46,556 nt of DNA from Clostridia bacterium (GTDB lineage: Bacteria > Bacillota > Clostridia > TANB77 > CAG-508): positions 1 to 46,556 of the forward strand of contig JAAWJE010000078.1 in the NCBI GenBank assembly GCA_022796725.1, read 5' to 3'. A program made the position numbers and the translations under genes. The notes beneath the pieces were generated by a model that saw only the letters and a list, made by a program, of their open reading frames with translations, did not search any database and had not been told where the DNA came from. The stretch's first letter is position 1, and each line of letters begins with the position of its first letter. Of this stretch, positions 4,539 to 25,302 are shown in pieces.

Positions 4539-5351
4539 ATGAATATATATAAATTATTAAATGAAGCAGTTGATTATATAGAAAATAATTTAGAAGAAAA
4601 AATTGAATATAAAAAAATAGCTCAAATAATGGGAATGAATGAATATTCTATGCAAACTATATTTTATGCTATGTGTAATATTTCATTATCTGATTATATT
4701 AGAAAAAGGAGATTATCAAATGCAGGATATGACTTATATAATACAGACAGAACAATATTAGAAATAGCATTAAAATATCAATATAACAATGCAACATCAT
4801 TTTCAAGAGCTTTTGAAAAGCTTTATGGAATAAAACCAAGTAAAATAAGAAATAATCCAAATGGATTAAAAATGTATTTAAGAATTAAATTTGATGAAAA
4901 AGAAGAGGTAAACAAATGTATAGAATATAGTATAATAGATATTGAAGAATTAGAACTTTATGGAATAGGAAAAAAAACAACAGTAGATAAGATAAGTATA
5001 GATGCTCCAAAGTTTTGGAAATTAAAATATAAACAATATGGGGAAAAATATGGGGAATTTGACTATGGAATGACTTCTTATGTAGATAGATTTAATAATG
5101 AGAATTGCGAATATTATGTTTTGTATAATAGAAAAGTAGAAGAGAAAGATTTAAAAAAAATAATTATACCAAAAAGCAAATGGATAAAAATAGGTATAAA
5201 TTCACAAAAAGCACTAGATATACAGAGTGTAACTAATAAATTTTATAAAGAATTTATACCAAGTTCATCTTATAAATTTAGAGAATTACCAGAACTTGAA
5301 CATTATCATGATGGAATAGTTGATTTTTTAATACCAATAGAAGAAAACTGA
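4539..5351 (+). CDS. AraC-family transcriptional regulator with C-terminal effector-binding (GyrI-like) domain
   Basis: N-terminal double HTH: '..IAQIMGMNEYSMQTIFYAMCNISLSDYIRKRRLSNA..ILEIALKYQYNNATSFSRAFEKLYGIKPSKIR'. Confidence 0.85.
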   Translation: MNIYKLLNEAVDYIENNLEEKIEYKKIAQIMGMNEYSMQTIFYAMCNISLSDYIRKRRLSNAGYDLYNTDRTILEIALKYQYNNATSFSRAFEKLYGIKPSKIRNNPNGLKMYLRIKFDEKEEVNKCIEYSIIDIEELELYGIGKKTTVDKISIDAPKFWKLKYKQYGEKYGEFDYGMTSYVDRFNNENCEYYVLYNRKVEEKDLKKIIIPKSKWIKIGINSQKALDIQSVTNKFYKEFIPSSSYKFRELPELEHYHDGIVDFLIPIEEN

Positions 5352-5384
5352 TTTTTTTCATAAGAAAAATGTCAGTTTTTTTTT
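5346..5384 (+). terminator. Intrinsic terminator after the araC-family gene
   Basis: AACTGATTTTTTTC-ataa-GAAAAATGTCAGTT followed by T9. Confidence 0.75.
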
Positions 5385-5420: not shown

Positions 5421-7307
5421 ATGAAAAAATATGTATCAGAAATATTTTTAACTACCGATTTTGTAAATGAAGATGAATGGCTTAAATTTATATTAGAAAT
5501 ATCAAGATTAAATGGTATTTTTAATAAGTGGAAGATAGTTATTGAAATAGAAAGAAATTTAGTAAAATATTATATAATAACCAAAAGAAAGATTCCTACT
5601 ATATTAGGCGTATCAGGCAGTTTTTTTATAAAAAATATAGATAATATAGAAAATCAAAAAACAAAATTATATCCAGTATATATGGTAAAAAATAATGAAA
5701 ATAATATAGTAGAAATATACGAAAAAAGCGAAGCAAAATATAATAAAAAAGTAAAAAGAATTGAAATAAAAATAATACCATTTAAACAAAACAATTATAT
5801 TACTAAAACACATTTATATTTTGGAAATGATGAAAAAATTTTTTATAAGAGAAAAGCAGTATTTTTTATTCCACATATAGCAATTAGTATTGATTATACA
5901 AAACATAATAGGTTTTTATATAAGAAAGATGGAGTAAAATATTTAAAAATACAAAAATCAGTAAAAATCTTTAATAAAGAAAAAAATAATGATGATATAT
6001 TAGAAATAAATGCGTTTCCATATTTTGAAGAAAAATATTATTTGAATATAAATGACTATGATTTTAATAAACATTCTTTAATTGTTGGAGCAAGTGGAAG
6101 TGGAAAATCAAAATTAATAGCGTCATTTATAGAGAGAATTTATGAAAACAAAGCTATTAGAGATGATTATAAAATAGTTGTTATAGACCCACATAGTTCA
6201 CTAGAAGAAGATATAGGAGGAATGGAAAGCTTAAAAATTATAGATATGAAATCAACTGAAACATCAATGAATTTATTATCTAATAAGAGTGAAAATGTAA
6301 GTAGTAATACAGAAATACTAATGACAATTTTTAAAACAATTTTAGGAGAAGAATATAATTCAAGATTAGAGAGGGTACTAAGACATTCCATATATTTATT
6401 ATTAAAAGAAAAGTTATTAAGTTTTGAAAATTTAAGAAAATTATTATCACAATCAGAATATAGAAATAAATTAGTTAAAGATTCAGAAGATATAGAAGTG
6501 CATATAAAAGAGTTTTTCTTAACTGATTTTAAGGAAATAAAATCATCTTCATATCAAGAGGCAATATCTCCAATTATAGCAATAATAGATGAAATGCAGA
6601 TGCTTCCAGGATTTAAAGAAGGGAAAGATATAAATGATTTTGAAGATACAATAGAAAAAAATTTTTCTACGATATTTTCAATAAATCAGGCAGTATTGGG
6701 AGAAAAAGTAACTAAAATTATTTCTGGACTGATTATGGGACTTATGTTTAGTCTAGTACAAAGAAGAAGATTTGATAAAAATATAATATTTATAATTGAT
6801 GAAATAGCAGTTGTAGAAAATCCTATACTAATTAGTTTATTATCAGAGGCTAGAAAGTATAATTTATCTTTAATTGTTAGTGGACAGTATTTAGGTCAAG
6901 TCAGTAAAGAACTAAGAGATGCTATATTTACAAATGTATATAATTATTATTCTTTTAGAATATCAAGAGAAGATGCAATGCTTCTAAATAATCATATGCA
7001 AATGGAAATGGCAGTAAAAAATACATATAATAATAGAATTAAATTGCTGACAGAACTTCCAAATAGAGAATGTATAGTAAGAATTAGTAAAAATGGAATT
7101 CTTATACCAGCTTTTAGATGTAAGACATTAGATTTTAGACCAATTCCAAAAGAAAAAAATCAGATATTACATAAAATAGTAAGGGAAAGTATATTAAAAA
7201 AAGATATAGAAATAAAAGAATTTAATTTTGAAATAGGAGATGACATAGATATAAAAAGTATAATGTCTTCTCAATCTACAAGTAGGAGGAAAATAAAATA
7301 TGAATAA
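5421..7307 (+). CDS. HerA/VirD4-like (DUF87/AAA+) P-loop ATPase
   Basis: Walker A GASGSGKSKLIASF, 'IVVIDPHSSLEEDI', Walker B NIIFIIDEIAVVENP, 'LSLIVSGQYLGQV' sensor-like region. Start set at ATG 5421 (MKKYVSE.., SD GGAGGGTTAT) rather than the ORF-track start at 5385. Confidence 0.85.
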   Translation: MKKYVSEIFLTTDFVNEDEWLKFILEISRLNGIFNKWKIVIEIERNLVKYYIITKRKIPTILGVSGSFFIKNIDNIENQKTKLYPVYMVKNNENNIVEIYEKSEAKYNKKVKRIEIKIIPFKQNNYITKTHLYFGNDEKIFYKRKAVFFIPHIAISIDYTKHNRFLYKKDGVKYLKIQKSVKIFNKEKNNDDILEINAFPYFEEKYYLNINDYDFNKHSLIVGASGSGKSKLIASFIERIYENKAIRDDYKIVVIDPHSSLEEDIGGMESLKIIDMKSTETSMNLLSNKSENVSSNTEILMTIFKTILGEEYNSRLERVLRHSIYLLLKEKLLSFENLRKLLSQSEYRNKLVKDSEDIEVHIKEFFLTDFKEIKSSSYQEAISPIIAIIDEMQMLPGFKEGKDINDFEDTIEKNFSTIFSINQAVLGEKVTKIISGLIMGLMFSLVQRRRFDKNIIFIIDEIAVVENPILISLLSEARKYNLSLIVSGQYLGQVSKELRDAIFTNVYNYYSFRISREDAMLLNNHMQMEMAVKNTYNNRIKLLTELPNRECIVRISKNGILIPAFRCKTLDFRPIPKEKNQILHKIVRESILKKDIEIKEFNFEIGDDIDIKSIMSSQSTSRRKIKYE

Positions 7308-8004
7308 AGATGAAGTATTAGAAAACATTAATAAAATACTTTTAAATATTTTTGAAATAGAAAATCCATTTACAATAGAAGAAATATTAGAGAAATTTGC
7401 ATTTGATGTAAAACTCCCAAAAGAAGTAATTGATAGTGTAACAAAAGAAAAAACTTGGACAGAGATGGAAAATTCAACTAATTTTATAAAACAAGTTAAT
7501 ATGGAAAAATATGATGAATATAAAGGCTGGATGATTACAAAAAGAGATATAAAGTCAGTAAAAGATATAATACAGATATGGAATAAAATTAATTATATTA
7601 CAACAGAAAGAATATATAATTCAGAGAATGTGTCAGAAAGTGACACTATTTATGACTCAAATAATATTTATAGGTCAGTAGATTTGAGAAAATGCAAAAA
7701 TGCTATATTTTCAGATGGATGTGGTGATTGTGAAAGTATAATAGCGTGTCAAAGAACTGGATATTCAACTAATTGTATAAGGGTAGATGATTCAGGTACT
7801 TGTTCTAATAGCTATAATGTTATATGTTCTGCTAAAATAGTAAATTCCTTTTTTATTCAAGATTGTAATAGTTTATATGAATGTATGTTTTGTAGTCATA
7901 TAGCAAATAAAAGATATTGTATAGCAAATATGCAATTTGAAGAAAATGAATATCTTAAGATAAAAAAAGAAGTAGTAAAATGGATTTTAAAAAAGAGCAA
8001 TTAA
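7300..8004 (+). CDS. Uncharacterised Cys/Ser-rich repeat protein, partner of the upstream ATPase
   Basis: Overlaps the upstream CDS by 8 nt. C-terminal half 'CKNAIFSDGCGDCESIIACQRTGYSTNCIRVDDSGTCSNSYNVICSAKIVNSFFIQDCNSLYECMFCSHIANKRYCIANMQFEENEY' has a short-period, beta-helix-like pattern. Confidence 0.8.
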   Translation: MNKDEVLENINKILLNIFEIENPFTIEEILEKFAFDVKLPKEVIDSVTKEKTWTEMENSTNFIKQVNMEKYDEYKGWMITKRDIKSVKDIIQIWNKINYITTERIYNSENVSESDTIYDSNNIYRSVDLRKCKNAIFSDGCGDCESIIACQRTGYSTNCIRVDDSGTCSNSYNVICSAKIVNSFFIQDCNSLYECMFCSHIANKRYCIANMQFEENEYLKIKKEVVKWILKKSN

Positions 8005-8020
8005 TTAAAAAATAATTTTA

Positions 8021-8048
8021 TTGACTGATATAAAAAAAGTTATATAAT
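8021..8048 (+). promoter_or_regulatory. Sigma-A type promoter
   Basis: TTGACT (8021-8026), 16-nt spacer, TATAAT (8043-8048). No ORF starts for about 325 nt downstream. Confidence 0.65.
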
Positions 8049-8054
8049 CTAATA

Positions 8055-8236
8055 AAATAAAGAAGGAATGTATTTATTAAAAGTTTGATAAGTTGTACCC
8101 ATAAATGGGCATAGTAAAGACTAGAGGTGCTACTCTAGTCTTTTTTACGTATTAATCAAACATCTTAAGGATATGATAAATCAAGATTAATGCAATCAAT
8201 TTGATAAGTTGCTAAATAAACTTTTACATCCTTTTA
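8055..8236 (+). ncRNA. Candidate structured RNA of unknown class, about 180 nt (or about 90 nt if it ends at the hairpin at 8117-8147)
   Basis: Promoter directly upstream. 5' AAGGAATGTA..AAAAGTTT can pair with 3' AAACTTTTACATCCTTT. Internal hairpins CCCATAAATGGG, AGACTAGAG/CTCTAGTCT+T6, ATTAATC/GATTAAT. 12-nt direct repeat TTTGATAAGTTG at 8084-8095 and 8200-8211. Confidence 0.45.
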
Positions 8237-8374
8237 GAAATTGAGTACTTAGATAGTATAAAACGAAAAATTAATATATACAGTGATTTATCTGAAAATA
8301 ACAATTTATGTATTGACTTTTATATAAGACTGTACTTAAATTAAAAAGTAATATAAAAATAAATGGAGTGAAAA

Positions 8375-9886: not shown

Positions 9887-9970
9887 CATAAAAAAATGAA
9901 CAACTTGTATGTAAATATTGATAAAAAGGGGATAGTATGATATAGTTTGCATATAAAAAGGAGATTAGAT

Positions 9971-12900
9971 ATGCCAGATTTTGTACACTTACATGTTCAT
10001 AGTGAATATAGTTTATTAGATGGAATGAGTAGAATTAAAGATTTACCTGTAAGAGCTAAAGAGCTTGGAATGAAAGCAATAGCTCTTACGGATCATGGCG
10101 TTATGTATGGTGCTGTTGAATTTTATAAAGAATGTAAAAAAAATGATATAAAACCAATAATTGGTTGTGAAGTATATGTTGCAAGAAGAACAAGATTTGA
10201 TAAAGAAGCAAGTATTGATAGTGGATATAATCATTTAATATTACTTGCTAAGAATAAGATAGGATATCAAAATCTAATAAAATTAGTGTCGCTGTCATTT
10301 ACAGAAGGATTTTATTATAAACCAAGAATTGATAAAGAAATATTAGAAAAATATAGTGATGGATTAGTATGTTTAAGTGCATGTTTAGCAGGAGAACTCC
10401 CACAAGCTTTAGTAAAAAATGATTTAGAAAAAGCAGAAGATATTGCTATGTGGTATAAAAACTTATTTAAAGATGACTATTATATAGAAATACAAAATAA
10501 TGGACTAAGAGAACAAGTAATGGTAAATCAAAAACTTATAGAACTTGCCAAAAAGTTAGATATACCAGTAGTTCGGAACAAATGATGCACATTATTTAAA
10601 AAAAGAAGATGCTTATAATCATGAAGTATTATTATGTATTCAAACTGCAAAAAAAATGTCTGATGAAGATAGAATGAGATTTGAAACAGATGATTTTTAT
10701 ATAAAGGCACCAGAAGAGATGTCAGACTTTTTTGAAAATATTCCTGAAGCAATAGAAAATACAGTAAAAATTGCTGATAAGTGTAATTATGATTTTGAAT
10801 TTGGTGTTACTAAACTTCCAAATTATGATGTATCAGATGAATTTGAAACGCATACAGATTATTTTAAAAAGCTTTGTTATGATGGTTTTAAAGAGAGATA
10901 TGGAGATAATCCAGAAAGAGAAATAAAAGATAGACTAGAATATGAATTATCAGTAATTGAGAAAATGGGATATGTAGATTATTTCCTAATTGTATGGGAC
11001 TTTATAAATTATGCTAAAAGTGTAGGGATACCAGTAGGACCAGGACGTGGTTCTGGTGCAGGTTCAATTGCAGCTTATTCTATAGGAATAACAGATATAG
11101 ATCCTATCAAATATAATCTTATTTTTGAAAGGTTTTTAAATCCTGAAAGAATAAGTATGCCAGATTTTGATATAGATTTCTGCTATGAGAGAAGACCAGA
11201 AGTTATAGAATATGTTGGAAGAAAATATGGAATAGACCATGTATCACAGATTATTACATTTGGAACAATGGCTGCAAGAATGGTTATTAGAGATGTTGGA
11301 AGAGTATTAGACTTTCCATATTCTGAAACAGATAAACTTGCTAAAATGATTCCAATGGAAATTCATATAACAATAAAAAAAGCACTAGAACAAAACAGAG
11401 AATTAAAAGAATGGTATGATTCAGATGAGAATGTTAAACAATTAATAGATATCGCAATGGCATTAGAGGGACTTCCAAGACAAGCTTCAACACATGCTTG
11501 TGGAGTTGTTATAACTAAAGATCCAGTAGATACTTATGTTCCTCTATACTTAAATGATGGTAATGTATCAACACAATATACAATGACACTTTTAGAAGAA
11601 TTAGGGCTTTTAAAAATGGACTTTTTAGGACTTAGAACTTTAACTGTAATAGCAGATTGTATAAAACTTGTAAAACAAACTAGAGGGATAGATGTAGAAT
11701 TCGATAAAGATATGTCAGATCAAAATGTCTATAAGCAATGGGGAGATGGAAATACTTGTGGTATATTCCAATTTGAAAGTGGTGGTATGACAAACTTTAT
11801 GAAGGAACTTAAACCAGATAGCTTGGAAGATATAATAGCAGGAGTATCTTTATACAGACCAGGGCCTATGGATCAGATACCAAGATATGTTAAAGGAAAG
11901 CAACATCCTGGACATAATGAATATACTCATCCAGCATTAGAGCCAATATTAAATGTTACTTATGGTTGTATGGTATATCAAGAACAAGTTATGCAAATAG
12001 TAAGAGATTTGGCAGGGTATTCTCTAGGACGAGCTGATTTAGTAAGAAGAGCAATGGGAAAGAAAAAGCTAGATGTGATGGCAAAGGAGAGAGAATATTT
12101 TATACATGGACAAATTGATGAAGATGGAAATATTATTGTTCCTGGATGCGTAAGAAATGGTATTGATGAAGTATCTGCAAATAAGATATTTGATGAAATG
12201 GCAGAGTTTGCAAAGTACGCATTTAATAAATCTCATGCAGCTGCATATTCAGTTGTATCATATAGAACAGCATATCTTAAATATTATTATACAGAAGAAT
12301 TTATGGCTGCAACTTTAAATAGTTTCTTAGGAAACTTGGATAAAGTACCAATATATATAGATGAATGTAGAAGATTAAATATAGAAATATTAAAACCAAG
12401 TATAAATAAAAGTTTTACTAAATTTACAGTGCAAGATAAGAAAATAAGATTTGGACTTGGTAGTATAAAAAATGTTGGAGTAGCTGCAGTAAACAATATA
12501 GTAAGTGAAAGAGAGAAAAATGGAGAGTTTAAAAACTTTACAGATTTTTGTGAAAGAGTAAAAAATGAAAGTATTAATAAAAAATGTGTAGAATCGTTAA
12601 TAAAAGCAGGATGCTTTGATGGAATGGGACAAACAAGAAATACTCTACTTGCTTCATTTGAAGGAATATTGGATACAATAAATAATCAAGGTAGAAATTC
12701 TATTGCTAATCAAGTAACAATGTTTGATTTAGTAAGTGATGAAAATGTAGAAGAGATAAAATATAATTATATAATACTTGATGAGTTAAGTAAAAAAGAA
12801 ATATTATCAAATGAAAAAGAAATGCTTGGTATTTATATATCAGGACACCCATTAGACTCTATAAGAGAATTAATAAAGAAAAATACTAACATAAATTCTC

Positions 12901-13445
12901 TTCAGCTTAAGAATGTTGAAGATGAATTGAAAAATGATAACAGTAATATATTTAAAGATGGACAAAATGTTAAATATGCAGGAACAATAACAAATATAAA
13001 GAAAAAATATACTAAGAAAAATACAATTATGGCCTTTGTAACAGTTGAAGATTTATATGGAAGTGTAGAAATAATTGTTTTTGATAGTGTATATTCAAGG
13101 ATTAATGATATTTTATATGAAGAAAATATTATACTAATAGATGGTAGACTAAGTATTAAAGAAGATGAAGCACCAAGAATAGTTGTAAAAGATATTACAG
13201 AGTTTAATGAAAATTCTATTGAAAAGAAAAAGAATATTCTTCAGATAGATATTACAGAATTAAGTGAAAACCAAAAAAAGAGATTAAGAGGAATAATAAA
13301 ATTTTTCAGTGGAGATAGAGTAAACTTTAAAATACAAGTAGTAGATAAAGCAGAAGTAAAACCATGTGGAGCAATTTATTTAACTGAACAAATTTTAGAT
13401 GCTTTTAAAGAAATTGTTGGAGAAAATAATATTTGTATAGTATAA
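9971..13445 (+). CDS. dnaE: DNA polymerase III subunit alpha (DnaE), interrupted by one extra base at about 10574
   Basis: Part 1 (9971-10585): PHP domain MPDFVHLHVHSEYSLLDG. Part 2 in the +1 frame, conserved from GTNDAHYLKKEDAYNHEVLLCIQTAKKMSDEDRMRF (about 10575) through DnaE motifs (GPGRGSGAGSIAAY, MPDFDIDFCYERR, NKSHAAAYSVVSYRTAYLK) to 13445. Start at ATG 9971 follows AAAAAGGAG. Confidence 0.9.
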
Positions 13446-16400: not shown

Positions 16401-16504
16401 GACATTTTATAAAATGTCTTAATATTAATTTTTATTTTCTAATAATAGAATAAAAAATACTAATTGACAATAAAGTAAAAATGTGGTATAAATACTTGTA
16501 TAAA

Positions 16505-16757
16505 TAAAAGCAATGAAAAAGAGTAGTAAATTTAAAACTATCTAATAGAGAATAGAAGTGATTGCGCTGGAAGCTTCTTGTAGAAAAGATAAATTGAAGT
16601 AGCTTTGGAGCTGATATATTGAAAAATAAAGTAAATATATCCGTCTAAGAAACGTTAAATTCTAACTAAGATATATAGTTTATAATAGATTAAATTATAT
16701 AAATTAAGGTGGTACCGCGAAATTAGAACGCCCTTATTATAAGGTCGTTTTTTTGTT
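16505..16757 (+). promoter_or_regulatory. T-box leader controlling valS
   Basis: T-box core AAGGTGGTACCGCG (16708-16721); terminator ACGCCCTTATTATAAGGTCGTTTTTTT; upstream Stem I-like segment with AGAGAATAGAAGTG; located directly upstream of valyl-tRNA synthetase. Confidence 0.92.
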
Positions 16758-23848: not shown

Positions 23849-24505
23849 ATGTATATTAAATTGCCAGATAACTTTTCATATATAGTTAAAGGACGGCGGT
23901 ATGCAGTTGTAGAAAATGATACTCTTTACATATTTGCAATAGGAAATATTTCATGGGAAAAGATGGTTTATGAAATGTCTTATGAAATTCATGGGAGTAA
24001 TACTTGTAAATATTGTGGAAGAAAAAACTGTAAAGATATGACACTTGACCATAAATTTGCTATAAGCCAAGGTGGAGTTTCTATACCAGATAATCTTGTA
24101 CCAGTATGTCAAAAATGCAATATTAGAAAGTCGTACATGAATTATGAACAGTACAAAAAGTATCTTTCTAAATCTCAAAATCAGAGAGAGGTATATAAGG
24201 AAGGCATAGACAAGGAAATTGAACAAATAAGATATGAGAAAGGATTCAATTTACCTAAAAACTGGATTACAATGATGGATATTTCAGAGATAATATCAAG
24301 AGATGCAACAGAAGGATATAAGACCTTAAAAAAATATAAAAAGGTACAGCGATTTATTAAGGCGTATGGAAATGCTCCAAGACCAATTATCATATCAAAA
24401 AATAATTTTCTCTTGCAAGGCAATTCATTGTATTTAGCCGAGAAAGACAGTGGGTTTAAGTATGTTCCTACTGTAAAGTGTGAAAATGTAATTGTGGATA
24501 GCTAA
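23849..24505 (+). CDS. HNH endonuclease (paralog 1) with possible C-terminal ParB/Srx-like domain
   Basis: CKYCGRKNCKDMTLDHKFAISQGGVSIPDNLVPVCQKCNIRKS; C-terminus 'PIIISKNNFLLQGNSLYLAEKDSGFKYVPTVKCENVIV'. Confidence 0.85.
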   Translation: MYIKLPDNFSYIVKGRRYAVVENDTLYIFAIGNISWEKMVYEMSYEIHGSNTCKYCGRKNCKDMTLDHKFAISQGGVSIPDNLVPVCQKCNIRKSYMNYEQYKKYLSKSQNQREVYKEGIDKEIEQIRYEKGFNLPKNWITMMDISEIISRDATEGYKTLKKYKKVQRFIKAYGNAPRPIIISKNNFLLQGNSLYLAEKDSGFKYVPTVKCENVIVDS

Positions 24506-24513
24506 GTTTCTTT

Positions 24514-24544
24514 AAGCAGAGTTTCTTTGGGAACTCTGCTTTTC
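24514..24544 (+). terminator. Intrinsic terminator of HNH gene 1
   Basis: AGCAGAGTTTC-tttg-GGAACTCTGCTTTTC. Confidence 0.75.
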
Positions 24545-24573
24545 TATGCCTAAAAAATTAATATATAAATTTA

Positions 24574-24602
24574 TTGAACAATAAATAAAAACGTGATAGG
24601 AT
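24574..24602 (+). promoter_or_regulatory. Promoter of HNH gene 2
   Basis: TTGAAC (24574-24579), 17-nt spacer, TAGGAT (24597-24602). Confidence 0.45.
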
Positions 24603-24639
24603 ATAAACAAACAAATCTGAAAGAAAGGGGGCAAAAGAT

Positions 24640-25302
24640 ATGCGTATAGAATTGCCCAAAAAGGACTTCTGGTATACAGGAAAAGATAGCCGGACTTATG
24701 CTAATGTGAAAAATGGTATTCTTTATATAGTTGGAATAGAAGATATTTCATGGGAAAAAATCGCCATGGATATAACTTATTCGATATATGGCAAACAAAT
24801 ATGTCAATACTGTTTAAGAAGAGCCGAAAGAATATCGATTGACCATAAATATGCCAGAAATTGCGGAGGGGTAACAATACCAAATAATCTTATACCTGCA
24901 TGTAGAAGGTGTAATGGCACAAAAAATGAACTTAATTATGATCAATTCAAAAACTTGCGCACAATGAAAGATAAGAAAATAAGAGAGAGTTATAGAAGAA
25001 ACATCATAATTAAAAACGAAAGAATAAGATGCGAAAAAGGTTTTGAATTGCATCGAAAATGGATAATAGATAAAATAGACATTTCGGAAGTTATTGTAAT
25101 GGATAATATAAGTCGGAATGAAAATAAAAAGTATTTAAAATCCATAAAGTTCATTAAAGAATATCGAAATGTACCAAATCCATTAGTAATATCGAAAAAT
25201 AATATTCTTTTAGAAGGACATTCACTGTATTTGGCTGAGCTTGACAGTAAGTTAGAAAAAGTACCAGTGCTAAGACTTGAAAATGTAATTGTAGTTGATT
25301 GA
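24640..25302 (+). CDS. HNH endonuclease (paralog 2) with possible C-terminal ParB/Srx-like domain
   Basis: CQYCLRRAERISIDHKYARNCGGVTIPNNLIPACRRCNGTKNE; C-terminus 'PLVISKNNILLEGHSLYLAELDSKLEKVPVLRLENVIV'; aligns end to end with the 23849-24505 product. Confidence 0.85.
   Translation: MRIELPKKDFWYTGKDSRTYANVKNGILYIVGIEDISWEKIAMDITYSIYGKQICQYCLRRAERISIDHKYARNCGGVTIPNNLIPACRRCNGTKNELNYDQFKNLRTMKDKKIRESYRRNIIIKNERIRCEKGFELHRKWIIDKIDISEVIVMDNISRNENKKYLKSIKFIKEYRNVPNPLVISKNNILLEGHSLYLAELDSKLEKVPVLRLENVIVVD

Follow-up and report, generated by a model that had tools for sequence, protein, structure and literature searches.

In the described systems closest to the locus considered here, HerA-NurA, HerA-Sir2/Nezha and HerA-DUF, the gene of a HerA/FtsK-type P-loop motor lies beside the gene of a dedicated partner. 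The same arrangement is found in the window, i.e. the whole 46,556-nucleotide stretch of Clostridia DNA that was analysed, where an ATPase gene is followed by the gene of a Cys-rich solenoid protein (CRS), and the top PDB matches of the ATPase are Sulfolobus HerA (4d2i) and HerA from anti-phage complexes (8xau, 8wiv, 8uae). Unlike in the known HerA-partner complexes, however, the partner is a predicted Cys-rich beta-solenoid with no recognised nuclease or NADase domain, the ATPase N-terminus is unmatched in Pfam, the control is probably of the AraC-GyrI type and the genomic context is housekeeping.

Other systems share single parts of the locus. The ATPase core resembles the VirD4/TrwB coupling proteins, matching both TrwB_AAD_bind and the TrwB structures (1e9r/1e9s), but unlike these proteins the ATPase has no membrane anchor and no accompanying relaxase or T4SS genes, and it belongs to a chromosomal cassette. 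Mad8 of the MADS system is its best PADLOC match (1.3e-18), whereas no other PADLOC-matching gene was found among the window neighbours tested. As in Rob/SoxS/MarA-type activators that carry a GyrI-like domain, AraC DNA-binding and GyrI-like domains are combined in AraC-G, the product of the gene upstream; unlike those activators, AraC-G is apparently dedicated to one cassette, and its probable operator, CTGAC-N-GTCAG, is an inverted repeat. Finally, a similar pair exists in Patescibacteria (CPR), where an ATPase of 745 aa and Cys-rich proteins of about 555 aa are homologous to the two window proteins and their genes are linked; it differs in having TrmB-type regulators nearby, in two genomes, and not AraC.

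The reading preferred here, with a probability of roughly one half, is that of a ligand-inducible chromosomal cassette, in which AraC-G activates a cytosolic HerA-type motor together with its dedicated partner CRS. HerA-type motors with dedicated partners are already known; the CRS family, its regulator and its spread over Bacillota and CPR appear to be new, as no description of them was found in a limited open-access literature search. The first-pass annotation had described a two-gene module at 5421-8004, and its interpretation is supported in part: the AraC-GyrI activator and the operator were absent from it, and the cassette extends past these positions. Once the activator gene and its probable operator are added to the pair, the unit becomes a three-gene regulated cassette, with the following features:

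4539-5351, plus strand: AraC-G, Rob-like AraC-family activator of 270 aa, with HTH_18 and a C-terminal GyrI-like ligand-binding domain
5348-5375, no strand assigned: inverted repeat CTGATTTTTTT-CATAAG-AAAAATGTCAG, probable operator, overlapping the AraC-G stop codon
5396-5401, plus strand: -10 box TATAAT of the ATPase promoter, read from the sequence and from its fixed spacing across loci
5421-7307, plus strand: ATPase gene (ATG start, RBS GGAGGG), HerA/VirD4-type, 628 aa
6087-6110, plus strand: Walker A of the ATPase (G223xSGxGKS230), invariant in 44 sequences
6798-6803, plus strand: Walker B of the ATPase (D460 E461), invariant in 44 sequences
7269-7292, plus strand: SQSTSRRK tail motif of the ATPase, conserved within an otherwise disordered, variable C-terminus
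7300-8004, plus strand: CRS gene, second of the pair, 234 aa
7882-7920, plus strand: CxxCxH..C knuckle of CRS (C195xxC198xH200...C207), candidate metal site

The ATPase and its Cys-rich partner

The two open reading frames and their 8-nt overlap (ATGAATAA) were confirmed in the sequence as first annotated. The open frame would also permit an ATPase start at GTG 5385, but it is ATG 5421 that has the RBS and that is conserved as a start. The 8-nt overlap is found in most of the window genus, and outside it the junction varies, the two genes overlapping by a few nt in some cases and lying up to a few dozen nt apart in others; thus, adjacency is conserved and the exact overlap is not.

The ATPase belongs to the HerA/FtsK/VirD4 ring-ATPase superfamily. 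Its P-loop core, with Walker A and B, matches DUF87 (8.9e-10) and TrwB_AAD_bind (2.2e-5) above the Pfam cut-offs, and the HerA/VirD4-like fold proposed earlier is backed by Foldseek matches in the PDB to HerA (1e-14) and TrwB (4e-13), as well as to anti-phage HerA, HerA-Sir2 and DndH-C. The AlphaFold model has a pLDDT of 79.7, with values below 50 at residues 581-606 and 619-628. The N-terminal region of about 200 aa, which had been described as having no recognised fold, indeed matches no Pfam family, but AlphaFold predicts a confident alpha/beta structure there. At the other end of the protein, the SQSTSRRK tail is a candidate docking peptide. A 19-residue hydropathy scan found no transmembrane segment or N-terminal membrane anchor, the highest value (1.88) lying in the core near Walker B.

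For CRS, the predicted architecture comprises an N-terminal alpha/beta domain (residues 1-98), a beta-solenoid (about 100-190) and a C-terminal helix. The short-period Cys/Ser pattern first seen by eye exceeds chance: the hydropathy of the CRS profile has an autocorrelation peak of 0.48 at lag 12, whereas 99.9% of shuffles stay below 0.34, and the protein is predicted to be a beta-solenoid of 12-residue period. The AlphaFold model shows regularly spaced strands and has a pLDDT of 77.8, lower over about 150-200, and its C-terminal half is of low confidence. C195, C198 and H200 are present in 64 of 64 CRS proteins and C207 in 63 of them, which suggests a possible metal site; C or H is common at the last position among CPR relatives, and the site is not universal, since the CRS of one CPR genome (G510) lacks two of the knuckle cysteines. 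No family match above cut-off was obtained for CRS in Pfam, NCBIfam or PADLOC, including any to NurA in Pfam, nor was a nuclease, NADase or other effector domain recognisable with these three collections; structural relatives were found neither in the PDB nor, among viral proteins, in BFVD. Among the cassette proteins CRS shows the strongest conservation, with a mean tree distance of 0.85 versus 1.28 and 1.23 for the other two.

Distribution in Bacillota and Patescibacteria

Within the window genus, ATPase and CRS are both present in the same 10 of 14 genomes and both absent from the same four (P 0.001), and they are adjacent wherever the contig allows; judged from these sequences, none of the genus genomes searched has one gene without the other. 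The first-pass annotation had made its reading depend on conservation of the second gene next to the ATPase in related genomes, and in this comparison the pair held together. Chance adjacency is rejected for the window. An AraC-G orthologue accompanies the pair in nine of the ten genus genomes that have it and in none of the four that do not, two of which hold only AraC-G paralogues of 34% identity.

When GTDB genomes were searched with an alignment of CRS proteins, 170 encoding stretches were obtained and 80 of them kept; almost all come from MAGs that carry the label Clostridia, Bacilli or Erysipelotrichia. When all open reading frames of these 80 loci and the window were clustered, CRS was found in 81 loci, the ATPase in 79 (directly upstream of CRS) and AraC-G in 65, whereas the fourth most frequent gene, a housekeeping one, is present in 10; AraC-G, ATPase and CRS are the only recurring genes. 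The earlier remark that no NurA, relaxase or secretion gene adjoins the pair holds beyond the window, the conserved neighbours of the ATPase in the 81 loci being AraC-G and CRS alone, with no NurA gene among them. In a close relative without the cassette (G008), the sequence matches the window on the left up to about 4476 and on the right again from about 8008, so that G008 lacks AraC-G, ATPase and CRS and nothing else of this region.

The distances among the cassette proteins correlate (r 0.75-0.88), partly reflecting common descent. One CRS accompanies each ATPase in the Firmicutes loci, the cassette lies at different chromosomal sites in different genomes, and its presence in 3 of the 391 genomes of a class sample makes it rare and patchy. 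In one genome (G004, locus L030, 9584-11441) the ATPase is broken by stops or frameshifts next to an intact CRS and AraC-G, and the cassette may be decaying there; pseudogene status is rejected for the window. As a molecular module, the ATPase/CRS pair is real, widespread and as yet uncharacterised.

Moreover, when the CRS profile was run against Patescibacteria/CPR, the phylum to which a genome with the label Saccharibacteria belongs, the close form of the pair was found in two genomes (G439, G510), and seven CPR genomes were found to carry CRS-like genes mostly of 550-590 aa (typically about 555 aa), many of them in arrays, with up to 16 profile-matching stretches in one genome. The likeness of the CRS C-terminus to CPR proteins, which the first annotation had pointed out, proved correct both by these genome matches and by profile comparison (hhalign: 97.3% probability, 1.8e-11, over the C-terminal cap). 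The window CRS shares with the 555-aa family a solenoid unit ending in a C..C......Y[CH]..N.Q...EEY cap, and differs from it in having a single solenoid unit and a different N-terminus, versus two units and zinc-ribbon-like ends. No function assigned to the CPR Cys-rich paralogue families was found in a limited full-text literature search.

A soluble CPR ATPase of about 745 aa, homologous to that of the window (hhalign: 99.9%, 2.5e-33), adjoins CRS-like genes. Its subfamily, set at 992 bits or more (the next match in a smaller sample scored 816), is present in 25 of 380 CPR genomes, and all 25 carry CRS-like genes, versus 6 of the 355 genomes without it (P 8e-34); outside the profile-building set, CRS-like genes were found in 18 of 18 genomes with the subfamily (P 7e-26), although, since the CPR genomes concerned may be one clade, the 25 are not independent events and both P values overstate independence. 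Direct neighbours (gap below about 200 nt) were seen in at least four of the seven genomes of the profile sample (G578, G564, G457, G535) and in at least 7 of the 18 others (G720, G677, G631, G669, G804, G641, G718), several further CPR genomes have the two within 8 kb, and some CRS-like genes also lie far from the ATPase. In this way, CPR families of Cys-rich paralogues become tied strictly to one soluble HerA-type ATPase.

As regards regulation, no AraC gene is present in the stretches read of G439 and G510, from which it follows that the module can do without AraC control. The 550-590-aa arrays of two other genomes (L161-L164 in G578, L203 in G447) adjoin genes of TrmB-type regulators (PF01978), a possible separate control system. 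The close 234-aa form (L104, L165) comes from a Saccharibacteria-labelled goat-gut MAG and from a 0.91-Mb genome of the same phylum, in which the module lies beside a groEL-like gene; the module may have been transferred between gut Firmicutes and CPR, or the goat-gut MAG may be misbinned. A wider and tentative reading, on balance an unlikely one, would join both phyla in a single undescribed cytosolic machine, a HerA-type ring with metal-binding Cys-rich solenoids as interchangeable adaptors or cargos: one CRS would serve under a chemical-sensing activator in gut Firmicutes, whereas some CPR bacteria would use tandem arrays of at least a dozen.

Defence, cargo and genomic context

The first-pass annotation had also considered a role in defence, plasmid or phage biology, but no such context was found at the loci, either in the census or among the window neighbours. 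The latter have housekeeping or sporulation functions (cdaA, a HAD hydrolase, truA and dnaE, and farther away valS-, sigF- and lepA-like open reading frames), and no PADLOC-matching defence gene was found among those tested. The link of CRS to large phages, likewise pointed out there, turned out to be weak: 55 of 64 CRS proteins match phrog_15341, at best with 3e-6, and no CRS match was obtained in GenBank phages or, by single protein or alignment, in IMG/VR, where the CPR form of CRS is found at one contig end only. A phage origin is rejected, as viral matches cover the ATPase core only and leave CRS unmatched but for that contig end; a plasmid origin is also rejected, on the basis of distant matches limited to the ATPase core at less than 30% identity.

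An anti-phage module, in which a HerA-type motor would act with an effector partner as in HerA-Sir2, HerA-DUF4297 or MADS, is judged unlikely. Dedicated partners of HerA-type ATPases are known from defence complexes, to which several of the PDB matches belong, the ATPase matches HerA (1.2e-10) as well as mad8 in PADLOC, and the presence of the cassette is patchy within the genus. However, the ATPase reaches 22.9 bits against a curated cut-off of 800 for the NCBIfam model HerA_antiphage (NF042943) and so fails it; CRS has no recognisable effector domain and, as the best conserved of the three proteins, is unlike fast-evolving effectors; no further gene is common to the loci, the window neighbours are of the kind described above, and AraC-GyrI control is unusual for defence.

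Somewhat less probable again is that a soluble coupling-type motor unfolds or delivers CRS, which would then be a substrate and not a partner. VirD4-type relatives recruit protein substrates, and a single ATPase beside diversified arrays of CRS paralogues in CPR resembles one machine with many cargos; furthermore, cultivated CPR bacteria are described in a review (PMC12857230) as depending on T4SS-like machines; in the passages covered, that review has no description of the ATPase/CRS module. Against delivery of CRS stand the lack of a transmembrane segment in the window ATPase and of any T4SS gene nearby in the window, the single CRS per ATPase in Firmicutes loci and the CPR CRS-like genes that lie far from the ATPase. 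On the best reading, the cassette serves neither conjugation nor division and is no typical phage-defence system.

The activator and its probable operator

AraC-G matches HTH_18 (2.7e-17) and GyrI-like (1.4e-7) in Pfam, and SoxS (6.6e-19) and Rob (9e-17) by profile, so that by domain content it fits the Rob-like AraC activators. It lies upstream in 62 of the 68 loci with room for its gene. Between AraC-G and ATPase the general form of the repeat is CTGA[C/T]TTTTT-loop-AAAAAGTCAG, i.e. CTGAC-T5..A5-GTCAG, and it is a probable operator: the 7-mer AAGTCAG occurs in 53 of the 70 upstream regions, whereas shuffled ones give 7 at most, and of the 61 occurrences of a [GA]TCAG arm, 53 are followed by a -10-like box at a distance of 26 nt (25 nt in the window), a spacing that places the arm on the -35 position. 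In class II activation the activator site overlaps the -35 element, as it does here, and the ATPase promoter has no good -35 of its own.

The presence of the repeat also tracks that of the activator gene. Of the 62 loci with AraC-G, 61 have the repeat ahead of the ATPase, whereas it is missing from all six loci that lack the activator (P 6e-8), and four well-supported independent contrasts agree in nearly all pairings, although they are too few for a significant sign test alone. In the single exception (L103) the repeat precedes a nitroreductase gene inserted between AraC-G and ATPase; a nitroreductase is also present in L123, where it and the ATPase are each preceded by a repeat. Where other genes lie between AraC-G and ATPase (L074, L115, L123), the repeat is kept at the ATPase promoter. 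Among 18 whole genomes searched, the full pattern was found in nine, each time only at the AraC-G/ATPase junction, and it is absent from all four genus genomes without the module.

That the repeat is merely the transcription terminator of AraC-G, with AraC-G an incidental neighbour, is improbable in general, and this simple reading is rejected for the window. As RNA the repeat would form a hairpin (-19 kcal/mol, z -6.1) with a T-run, overlapping the AraC-G stop. Nevertheless, its core sequence is the same in Clostridia and Bacilli and keeps the 26-nt phase to the next -10; it stays at the ATPase promoter even with AraC-G 0.7-2.8 kb away, and it is missing from AraC-less loci, one of which (L050) has a different hairpin at that position. 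The repeat may double as terminator of the AraC-G transcript, and both roles may coexist.

In the preferred reading of an inducible cassette, AraC-G would bind a small molecule, probably cationic or drug-like, occupy the repeat and recruit RNA polymerase, so that ATPase and CRS would be made together. The ATPase would assemble into a hexameric ring moving nucleic acid (or, less likely, polypeptide) by ATP hydrolysis, and CRS would dock on this ring, giving it its target or output, in the way in which HerA is bound by its partners NurA, Sir2 or DUF4297. A remnant of a conjugation or mobilisation system (T4CP-like) on a mobile element is highly improbable: the TrwB/TraG-type domain matches and the differing chromosomal sites would suit it, but the ATPase lacks a membrane anchor, the cassette has no conserved relaxase, integrase or T4SS gene beside it in the 81 loci, the gene content of the window includes no relaxase or T4SS gene, and plasmid matches are confined to the ATPase core as stated above. 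A response to chemical or genome stress, and not DNA transfer, is the likely role of the cassette, in view of the GyrI-like domain and of the nitroreductase in two operons. The compact Firmicutes cassette, with a predicted inducer-responsive promoter, a single operator and a pair of soluble proteins, is a tractable form of the system for expression and assay, and it would extend the partners of HerA-type motors past nucleases and NADases.

Some other elements of the window deserve mention. Just downstream of the cassette, 8008-8240 is a conserved intergenic element, 77% identical to that of G008, where the cassette is absent; it contains a strong terminator-like hairpin (AAAGACTAGAGGTGCTACTCTAGTCTTTTTT), has no Rfam match and, on the minus strand in G008, could encode, after an RBS, a hydrophobic peptide of 16 aa that resembles a type I toxin. 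DnaE (DNA polymerase III alpha) appears split into frames of 212 aa (9947-10585) and 929 aa (10656-13445), probably by a frameshift or an assembly error, given that a relative (L062) has one open reading frame of 1152 aa. A T-box leader (Rfam RF00230, 108 bits) at 16504-16738 precedes a valyl-tRNA synthetase-like open reading frame, and 23849-25302 holds tandem paralogous HNH-endonuclease-like genes of 218 and 220 aa, of the 'CKYCGRKNC..LDHK' type.
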